Shown one piece after another: positions 43,914-63,531 of a stretch of 64,000 bases of DNA. The stretch lies in contig SXUP01000042.1 of the NCBI GenBank assembly GCA_005790505.1, positions 1-64,000 on the forward strand, read 5' to 3'. Both the position numbers and the translations under genes were made by a program. The notes under the pieces were generated by a model that made no database searches, was not told the origin of the DNA, and was given only the letters and a program-made list of their open reading frames with translations. Position 1 is the first letter of the stretch, and every line of letters starts with the position of its first letter. Source of the stretch: Actinomycetota bacterium (GTDB taxonomy: Bacteria; Actinomycetota; Acidimicrobiia; Acidimicrobiales; Ilumatobacteraceae).

Positions 43914-43942
43914 TTGTGGTGAGCCTGTGTTTGTGGCAGACT
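43914..43942 (+). promoter_or_regulatory. Promoter of the ilvBNC leader (TTGTGG-17-CAGACT)
   Basis: A -35-like TTGTGG at 43914-43919 and a -10-like CAGACT at 43937-43942 are separated by 17 bp. Transcription would begin near the GTG at 43950, giving a leaderless leader-peptide message. The remaining gap back to ino1 shows no other gene. Confidence 0.45.
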
Positions 43943-43949
43943 AAGCCTT

Positions 43950-43997
43950 GTGAACCGTTTGTTTCTTGCCACAGAATCTGTAGTAGTAGTCGTGTAG
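43950..43997 (+). CDS. ilvB leader peptide, 15 aa with five Val codons
   Basis: GTG 43950 opens a short frame that reads MNRLFLATESVVVVV and stops at TAG 43995-43997. Five Val codons (GTA GTA GTA GTC GTG) stand directly before the stop, with two Leu earlier. Shortage of charged Val-tRNA would stall the ribosome next to the hairpins at 43995-44023 and 44023-44050. This is the classic layout of branched-chain attenuation, known upstream of ilvB in other actinobacteria. It is too short for routine gene callers. Confidence 0.8.
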   Translation: MNRLFLATESVVVVV

Positions 43998-44023
43998 CGC
44001 GTCGGCCATCGCCGTACGCGCTA
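43995..44023 (+). promoter_or_regulatory. Leader hairpin of ilvB attenuator
   Basis: TAGCGCGT (43995-44002) pairs with ACGCGCTA (44016-44023), extended by CGGC/GCCG around a CATC loop. The 5' arm begins with the leader stop codon, so a ribosome stalled on the Val run would block this stem. Which alternative pairing forms then is not obvious from the sequence. Confidence 0.65.
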
Positions 44024-44050
44024 AAAACCTCCCATTTGGGAGGTTTTTTT
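44023..44050 (+). terminator. Rho-independent attenuator terminator before ilvB
   Basis: AAAAACCTCCC (44023-44033) pairs with GGGAGGTTTTT over a 4-nt loop and runs into seven T. It ends 61 bp before the ilvB start and follows the Val-rich leader peptide. Confidence 0.85.
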
Positions 44051-44111
44051 ATTTCCCAGCCACTTTTTACCAGTTACCACCCCACACTAGATACCCACAA
44101 GGAGACACCAA

Positions 44112-45868
44112 ATGTCACAAAAAGAGACACTGACCGGAGCGGAAGCTCTCATTCGTTCGCTTGAAAAAGAGCAAGTGGGTGTGATGTTTGGTCTGCCAGG
44201 TGGTTGCATCTTGCCGGCCTATGACCCATTGCTCAAATCCAGTATTCGACACATCTTGGTGCGCCACGAACAGGGTGCTGGCCACATGGCAGAAGGATAC
44301 GCCCATGTCACGGGGCGACCAGGCGTTGCCATGGTCACAAGTGGACCAGCAGCAACAAACATGGTGACCCCACTATGCGATGCCTACATGGACTCAATTC
44401 CTTTGGTTGTTATCACGGGTCAGGTTCCAACGACTGCCATCGGCACCGACGCTTTTCAGGAATGCGACACAGTTGGAATCACTCGAAGCGTGACAAAACA
44501 CAACGAACTTGTTATGCGCGCAGAAGATATTCCGATGGCGATTCGTCAGGCCTTTCATGTTGCGACCACAGGTCGTCCTGGACCCGTGTTGATTGACCTT
44601 CCAAAAGATGTCTTGCAGAACTCAATGACATGGAACTGGCCAAGCGACGACGAAGTCGTTGATTCACTACCTGGCTATAAACCAATCACAAAAGGTCATC
44701 CAAGAATGATCAAAGAAGCCGCCAGATTAATTCTTGCCGCAGAACGCCCAATTTTGTACTTGGGTGGTGGTGTTCTCAAAGCTCGCGCAGCAGAAATCGT
44801 TCGTGAACTTGCTGAACTAACTCAAATTCCTGTTGTTACGACGCTGATGGCGCGCGGAGCCTTCCCCGATGATCATCCGTTGTGCTTGGGCATGCCTGGA
44901 ATGCACGGTAACGCAACGGCAGTCACGGCAATGCAAAAGAGTGACCTCCTGATCGCACTAGGTTCCCGCTTTGACGATCGTGTCACTGGCAAAGTCTCGG
45001 GCTTCGCCCAAGAAGCAAAGATTATTCATGTCGATATCGATCCCGCAGAACAAGGCAAAGTTCGTCGCCCTGATGTTCCTATCGTTGGAGACTGTCGTTT
45101 GGTTGTCAAAGAATTGGTCAAAGCAATCAAAGACCTTCTTGAAGGTGGAGACACACAAGCAGATGTTGGTCCGTGGCGCAGTCGGTTGAGTGGTTGGCGC
45201 GAGCAGTTTCCACTGGCCTATGACGCCATGGAGCCAGGTGGTGCGCTCAAACCCCAGTTCTGTCTTGAAAAACTTCGTGACGGTGCACCAGACGGAACGA
45301 TTGTTGCAAGTGGTGTCGGACAACATCAAATGTGGACCAGTCAGTATTGGAACTTTAACGAGCCATATACGTGGGTTAATTCCGGTGGACTCGGAACAAT
45401 GGGTTTTGCTGTTCCAGCAGCGATTGGTGCAAAAGTTGGCCGACCTGACCGAACGGTTTGGGCGGTGGACGGTGATGGTTGTTTTCAGATGACTGCGCAG
45501 GAATTAATCACGGCAACAACTGAGAACATCCCAGTCAAGATCGCAATTCTGAACAATTCTTTCTTGGGTATGGTTCGCCAGTGGCAAGAAATGTTTTACG
45601 GAGAGCGCTATAGCGAGGTCAATCTTGGTGGTGGCGTGCCCGACTACGTGAAGTGGGCCGAGGCAATGGGCTGTGTTGGTATTCGCGTTGAGGCTGAAGA
45701 AGAAGTTGAAAACGCCATTGACAAAGCCAACAGCATCAACGACCGATCAGTGGTTGTTGAGTTCTGCGTCGAACAAATGGAAAAAGTCTTTCCGATGGTT
45801 CCTGCTGGGGCCGGAAACGATGATTTGTTGATCCAGCCAAGCCAAAACAGCCTTCGAGAGTTTTTGCG

Positions 45869-45872
<4 letters not shown>
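44112..45872 (+). CDS. ilvB: Acetolactate synthase, large subunit
   Basis: A 586-aa thiamine diphosphate enzyme catalysing the first common step of Val, Leu and Ile synthesis. Landmarks are [14 protein letters not shown], the catalytic Glu in [14 protein letters not shown] (E53), [29 protein letters not shown], and the cofactor motif [37 protein letters not shown] precedes ATG 44112. It is the first structural gene of ilvBNC, downstream of a Val attenuator; overlaps ilvN by 4 bp. Its need for thiamine diphosphate links it to the thiamine uptake genes at the right end. Confidence 0.96.
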
Positions 45873-47454
<1,582 letters not shown>

Positions 47455-62755: not shown

Positions 62756-63426
62756 AGGTCTCCTAGTGCTTGTGGTTGGACAATTAAGAGTGTTCCGTTG
62801 GTGACCGAGGCTTCAACAGGTGATGACGTGACTATGTTGCTTACGCCACGAGATTCATGCTGCGACAATGTGGCGCTATCCAATTGCCACTTGGTGCCGC
62901 GTAGTGAGACGCCAGTGGCTGTGCCACTCAGAGCAAATATGCTCAAGAGAGATTCGACAGGTGCGTCAATATAAACGGGTGATCCAGCCCGAACAACGGT
63001 TAATCGTGATACACCAATGTACGCAGTGACATTGCACAAAGAAAGTGATTCTCGCCCCAATGCCTGAATGACTCCGAGTACATGATCAAGCCTGTCACCC
63101 CCGCCCGAGACCACCACGATGTCAGTGCATCCAATACTTTGGGCGTGTGTGAGTGCGAGTTCAGTATCCGTGGCATCTTTATCGGTTGAGAATTCAAGAA
63201 CGGTTGCACCACTTTGTCGCGCCCGAACAAGGTCGGCGGCCAAAATGCTGTCCATATCGCCAATCAATACAGTTGGAGAGAGACCCAATACTTGAGCATT
63301 TCCCCAACCTGAATCAGCTGCCACTATTACTGCATCGACGGGCAGAAATTCAGCAATCTCAGGTCGCGGCTCAGCACCCCCCAAGATGATGACGGCAAAT
63401 TTTTTAGTTGCTTTGGCTGGCGCCAT
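62752..63426 (-). CDS. thiN: Thiamine diphosphokinase
   Basis: A 224-aa kinase transferring diphosphate from ATP to thiamine. Visible: AVIILGGAEPRPEIAEFLPVDAVIVAADSGWGNAQVLGLSPTVLIGDMDSI (substrate and metal site), STDKDATDTELALTHAQSIGCTDIVVVSGGGDRLDHVLGVIQAL, and the C-terminal beta domain with VSLRGTKWQLDSATLSQHESRGVSNIV. It is first in the TPP-controlled operon; the SD GGAGGGAG lies at the riboswitch's 3' end. Salvage of imported thiamine to TPP needs only this enzyme. Confidence 0.93.
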   Translation of the reverse strand: MAPAKATKKFAVIILGGAEPRPEIAEFLPVDAVIVAADSGWGNAQVLGLSPTVLIGDMDSILAADLVRARQSGATVLEFSTDKDATDTELALTHAQSIGCTDIVVVSGGGDRLDHVLGVIQALGRESLSLCNVTAYIGVSRLTVVRAGSPVYIDAPVESLLSIFALSGTATGVSLRGTKWQLDSATLSQHESRGVSNIVTSSPVEASVTNGTLLIVQPQALGDL

Positions 63427-63431
63427 TTTGT

Positions 63432-63519
63432 GCTCCCTCCGCTGGAATTACCCAGTTCAGGTCTGCGGGTCGGTGGCGGCAACCACCCTCTCAGCCCGCT
63501 GTACCTGCGAGCTCCCCGT
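63432..63519 (-). promoter_or_regulatory. TPP riboswitch
   Basis: Read on the minus strand, the element starts ACGGGGAGC, has GGGCTGAGA (63499-63491), a GGTGG/CCACC stem, CAGACCTGAACTGGGTAATTCCAGCG, and ends GGAGGGAGC just before ATG 63426. The CTGAGA and ACCTGAAC...GGGTAAT...GCGGAGGGA blocks are the THI-box signature. The SD of thiN is its last part, so control is likely at translation. Confidence 0.92.
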
Positions 63520-63531
63520 GCGTACATCTCT

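Follow-up and report, generated by a model that had tools for sequence, protein, structure and literature searches.

A predicted leaderless valine attenuator upstream of ilvBNC in Acidimicrobiia, with isoleucine and leucine counterparts

Described attenuators and the layout of the locus

Attenuation of ilvB through translated leaders rich in branched-chain codons has experimental support in Corynebacterium glutamicum (PMC11857589, PMC10272879) and in Mycobacterium tuberculosis (PMC13236596), and has been proposed across the Actinobacteria (PMC1262725). According to work cited in PMC11857589, replacement of the leader valine residues abolished the valine response of C. glutamicum, and in M. tuberculosis the change of LVVI to AAAA abolished induction (PMC13236596). 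In Streptomyces coelicolor, codon substitutions in the ilvB leader were without effect, as relayed in PMC1262725, and this result contradicts leader-based attenuation of ilvB.

The window analysed here, the whole stretch of 64,000 nucleotides, is part of contig C33 in a 2.0-Mb genome (G000), and the nearest named relative of its IlvB belongs to a Lake Baikal Ilumatobacteraceae MAG (98% identity). Upstream of ilvBNC lie a short leader gene with a run of valine codons, a hairpin (H1) and an intrinsic terminator (T; Table 1). The arrangement resembles that of ilvBNC in C. glutamicum and C. diphtheriae (IlvL, ilvB-II motif), the likeness being judged by the published layout (PMC10272879, PMC11857589): these loci also have a leaderless, 15-residue leader rich in branched-chain residues (PMC11857589, PMC10272879, PMC5784534), adjacent hairpins ending in a terminator and a conserved GUA control codon. 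However, the sensing codons in Corynebacterium lie in the middle of the peptide, whereas here the Val run abuts the stop codon and H1 starts at it; and the antiterminator proposed there shares bases with the terminator, whereas here such sharing is not under selection. M. tuberculosis ilvB1NC likewise combines a branched-chain upstream ORF (control codons LVVI), in which codon mutation kills the response, with a terminator, but its leader sequence is 166 nt long and an alternative antiterminator fold has been drawn for it (PMC13236596).

Leaderless leaders (IlvL and LeuL) are also found upstream of ilvBHC and leuA in Streptomyces lividans (PMC8079986), although IlvL (MRTRILVLGKRVG) has branched-chain codons only singly or in pairs, LeuL1 is without a typical terminator, and no isoleucine leader of the cimA type described below is listed for that species. 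Mycobacteria have leaderless polycysteine ORFs (Canestrari 2020, cited through PMC13236596), which are similar in being short and in carrying a homopolymeric sensor run, but they belong to a cysteine operon, and candidate mycobacterial cys leaders are without an obvious intrinsic terminator (PMC1262725). The ilvB element of G000 is the same kind of device as the known actinobacterial ilv/leu attenuators and a variant of them, distinguished by a Val run at the stop codon, a hairpin that begins there, the lack of selected bases shared with the terminator, and membership of a coordinated Val/Ile/Leu set. The open-access literature describes no attenuator for Acidimicrobiia or upstream of citramalate synthase, which is weak evidence of novelty because only open-access papers were covered. 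The locus would extend leaderless branched-chain attenuation to the Acidimicrobiia, and would offer a natural test set of one RNA layout, three sensor residues and three matched pathways in the single 2-Mb genome of a freshwater actinobacterium.

Table 1. Features of the predicted ilvBNC attenuator region (window positions) and of the predicted leuA attenuator.
Feature	Position	Strand	Description
Predicted promoter	43914..43942	+	-35 TTGTGG 43914-43919, 17-nt spacer, -10 CAGACT 43937-43942
Leader peptide gene	43950..43997	+	GTG start at 43950, 15 codons, VNRLFLATESVVVVV, TAG stop 43995-43997 (direct sequence reading); predicted leaderless
Val sensor run	43980..43994	+	codons 11-15, GTA GTA GTA GTC GTG
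Hairpin H1	43995..44023	+	MFE fold; stop codon starts 5' arm
Intrinsic terminator T	44024..44050	+	stem 44024-44033/44038-44047, then U-tract
Shine-Dalgarno of ilvB	44099..44104	+	AAGGAG; direct reading
ilvB	44112..45872	+	acetolactate synthase large subunit
ilvN	45869..46426	+	acetolactate synthase small subunit
ilvC	46426..47454	+	ketol-acid reductoisomerase
leuA attenuator	L169 about 1480-1610 (G000:C46)	minus	VTYKCQNLLLM, then H1 and T

Leader, hairpins and promoter in the window and in relatives

A sequence-only reading of this DNA had placed five successive valine codons in a 15-residue frame ahead of ilvBNC, and both elements of that description were borne out, ilvB, ilvN and ilvC following in that order. 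With both strands counted, the window has a single instance of five GTN codons and a stop, against a mean of 0.0 in 200 shuffles, and the leader aligns with MSSLFIATESVVVVV of near relatives. The frame was also said to end at the base of a hairpin, which stands with the correction that the stop codon itself forms the first three paired bases of H1. The terminator claimed to follow that hairpin was recovered by the MFE fold, by a terminator-like scan match at 44023-44048 and as a perfect 12-nt inverted repeat (44023-44034/44037-44048). Together, H1 and T (to 44047) fold with -40.3 kcal/mol (z -5.1; 0 shuffles as good). T lies directly 3' of H1, and an intrinsic terminator is thus interposed between leader ORF and ilvB; in the MFE fold of the readthrough RNA, there is only weak structure over the ilvB Shine-Dalgarno sequence, and sequestration of that site, with translational attenuation, was set aside on this ground.

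For the comparison with relatives, ilvB orthologues were drawn from 60 related genomes and 80 named loci, and a leader was called where at least three of the last seven residues were branched-chain and a terminator followed. Leader and terminator were present in 109 of 114 distinct Acidimicrobiia ilvB upstream regions; of 570 shuffled regions, none had them. Cultured organisms that carry the element include Ilumatobacter nonamiensis (L114), Desertimonas flava (L105) and strain IMCC26207 (L121). Called leaders were 10-22 residues long, most commonly 15; H1 started no more than about 4 nt from the stop codon in all of them, and the maximal stems of H1 and T ranged from a 4-nt overlap to 4 nt apart. 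Valine dominated in 69 of the 109 leaders, with leucine and valine tied in 24 more, so that the Val run, whose conservation had been proposed as a check, is largely kept among relatives. Five upstream regions are without the leader and these relatives have lost it: L023, L024, L026 and L027 are leaderless in this sense, with no leader peptide upstream of ilvB, and in L029 the terminator is kept right behind a promoter, with neither leader nor H1. Three genomes without the ilvB leader (G003, G012, G015) retain the leaders of cimA and leuA. A covariance model built from the ilvB leader gave matches in 77 of the 296 genomes of a phylum sample, many of them upstream of ilvB. Acidimicrobiia-type ilvB loci were also seen in public MAG records that bear the titles Bifidobacterium breve, Thermoanaerobacterales or Acidimicrobium ferrooxidans (L062, L068, L091, L100, L126; L117; L082), titles that are probably wrong.

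The leader transcript is predicted to be leaderless, with the RNA beginning at or beside the GTG. The -10 hexamer ends 7 nt upstream of this codon, and the start site is therefore predicted at or next to it. Since a generic sigma-70 scan of the window detected no promoter at the leader, the prediction rests on conservation: a TTGNNN-17/18-CA[GC]ACT block stands 5-9 nt upstream of the leader start in most relatives, and, when promoters are called without reference to the start codon, the -10 is followed 5-9 nt later by an in-frame ATG or GTG in 100 of the 109 leaders, compared with 10% when the upstream sequence is shuffled. The suggestion that the sensing peptide begins immediately behind a promoter is supported to this extent, as a prediction. 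Documented examples of leaderless ilvB leaders come from C. glutamicum, with start site and start codon one nucleotide apart (PMC11857589), from C. diphtheriae (PMC5784534) and from S. lividans (PMC8079986).

Codon choice within the run is skewed. Among the valine codons in the final seven positions of the leaders, GTA accounts for 57%, against 2.5% in the ilvB genes (80 named loci), and in 97 of 109 ilvB leaders the first GTA is 3-5 codons upstream of the stop; GUA has likewise been published as control codon for Corynebacterium and Mycobacterium (PMC11857589, PMC13236596). The Ile and Leu runs described below have no comparable bias towards rare codons, ATA being absent and CTA and TTG few. 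The preference for GTA might reflect either tRNA-Val(UAC) as the sensor or a constraint at the RNA level.

Isoleucine and leucine counterparts at cimA and leuA

Searching genomes with the covariance model revealed a second copy in G000 (C46:24785-24861, equivalent to L168 1500-1577; E 1e-8), upstream of a citramalate synthase gene (TIGR00977, cimA). Its leader, MLNNSTTDAPWLGVACFGNAIIIIL, ends in IIIIL, that is, four Ile codons followed by Leu and the stop. A weak match (E 0.06) on the opposite strand of the same contig adjoins leuA, and the leader on the leuA strand reads GTG ACT TAC AAA TGC CAG AAT CTC CTA CTT ATG TAG (Table 1). The cimA and leuA versions of the layout each occur as a single copy in G000. 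Among the leaders of relatives, isoleucine dominates in 28 of 28 at cimA and leucine in 25 of 26 at leuA; the association of residue with pathway is overwhelming by chi-square, the sequences being related and so not independent.

The comparison of leaders for Val, Leu and Ile runs, suggested by the sequence-only reading, therefore shows that in paralogous leaders the residue of the run matches the pathway. Judged from these peptides, the residue that would be sensed tracks the downstream genes (Val-ilvB, Ile-cimA, Leu-leuA), and this is strong indirect evidence for ribosome-mediated attenuation. Run patterns of His and Trp were too common across the genome to inform. Some relatives at order level carry this element, with mixed Val/Ile runs, ahead of a gene resembling 3-isopropylmalate dehydrogenase (L175, L178-L180, L184, L189, L190; the family scan covered L178 only).

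Proposed mechanism and alternatives

Fifty leaders were folded with a ribosome footprint masked at the start of the run, at the first GTA and at the stop codon, a ribosome being assumed to mask about 12 nt downstream of its A-site codon. In all 50, H1 was free (about -9 to -24 kcal/mol) with the ribosome at the first GTA and masked with the ribosome at the stop; thus, in this folding model, H1 is the sole element whose predicted formation depends on ribosome position, and its gating has the sign expected for an antiterminator. The predicted formation probability of T was about 0.9 or more at every ribosome position.

Pairing with the terminator was sought by an arm-swap test, which compared the duplex energy of the leader and H1 with each terminator arm against that of arms swapped between species. 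The positive controls, T arms and H1 arms, were both strongly co-conserved (H1: -18.9 kcal/mol for real and -12.8 for swapped arms); H1 was assessed in this way because the covariance model took in only 4 H1 pairs, MAFFT having misaligned the 3' arm of H1. Complementarity of the leader to the T arms was no greater than in swapped controls for the ilvB leaders, or for the cimA and leuA leaders when the test was repeated, and complementarity to the 5' arm of T was weaker than with swapped terminators (z about +5). H1 borrowed terminator bases in 59/101 cases against 59.4 with swapped terminators, which is no excess over chance, and in G000 the overlap amounts to 1 nt out of an 11-bp stem. Occlusion folding, arm swaps and base borrowing were all negative, so a textbook pairing antiterminator, mutually exclusive with T, was tested for and not found. 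The assertion that the locus contains the full logic of ribosome-mediated attenuation is therefore not supported as worded: the classical trp/his-type pairing of an antiterminator with a terminator arm was not detected by these tests. The broad features of an attenuator are present, namely a short ORF rich in codons for the pathway product, an intrinsic terminator and a predicted ribosome-dependent RNA structure, H1.

We interpret the element as a leaderless ribosome-mediated transcription attenuator reporting valyl-tRNA supply (probability about 0.8), in which leader and terminator very probably switch ilvBNC off when valine is plentiful. RNA polymerase would start at or next to the GTG, and a ribosome would translate the 15-codon leader. 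With charged tRNA-Val sufficient, the ribosome at the stop codon would cover the 5' arm of H1 and allow T to form, ending transcription near 44050; with charged tRNA-Val scarce, it would stall within the Val run, no more than 15 nt upstream of H1, whereupon H1 would form, termination would decrease and ilvBNC would be made. It is highly likely that such stalling occurs and raises readthrough. The role given to H1 is less secure: lying 0-4 nt from the base of the terminator, it may hinder T by contact or kinetics and not by pairing, at somewhat less than even odds, in which case it would act at the exit channel of the polymerase and impede the completion of T. More tentative is the proposal that the Acidimicrobiia have three sister attenuators (Val-ilvB, Ile-cimA, Leu-leuA) in which a stop-codon hairpin blocks T without mutually exclusive pairing, a family that possibly extends more widely in the Actinomycetota. 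If H1 does act without pairing to T, attenuation here would be simpler than the textbook three-way fold, and a non-pairing H1 could explain why Seliverstov et al. (2005) found Actinobacteria to lack attenuator components and the way in which ilvB is regulated there to be unclear.

The negative pairing tests also bear on the strongest alternative, a classical attenuator whose antiterminator escaped detection as a pseudoknot, a boundary switch of a few bases or a protein-stabilised fold. H1 adjoins T as in the C. glutamicum model, where a short boundary switch with a shared GCC trinucleotide has been proposed (PMC11857589), but the arm swaps and an H1/T overlap no greater than with swapped terminators make such an element rather unlikely.

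A pausing function for H1 is less probable again. The first hairpin of trp-type attenuators is known for pausing, and H1, which is strong and conserved, could likewise make RNA polymerase pause and so keep it in step with the leaderless ribosome, switching taking place by another route; pausing has also been proposed for the first hairpin in C. glutamicum (PMC11857589). However, pausing leaves readthrough upon stalling unexplained, and a stalled ribosome is predicted to let H1 form, not to melt it.

A leader that binds a metabolite or protein (riboswitch, T-box or pseudoknotted LEU element), the short ORF being incidental, is very improbable: the leader is structured and LEU elements have been reported upstream of leuA in Actinobacteria (PMC1262725), but the residue run tracks the pathway, there are just two plain hairpins of variable sequence, and among Rfam leader and riboswitch families none matched the leader at the gathering score, sub-threshold matches being weak. 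Short ORFs are common, but a chance ORF beside a constitutive terminator can be dismissed in the face of the conservation, leaderless geometry and residue matching.

Two minor observations concern the Rfam searches. Near-matches of the leader to Phe_leader, Atu_C8 and others were rejected as far below their gathering scores. At the far end of the window, a TPP riboswitch (RF00059, 54.5 bits, just above the gathering score) lies on the minus strand at 63417-63529.
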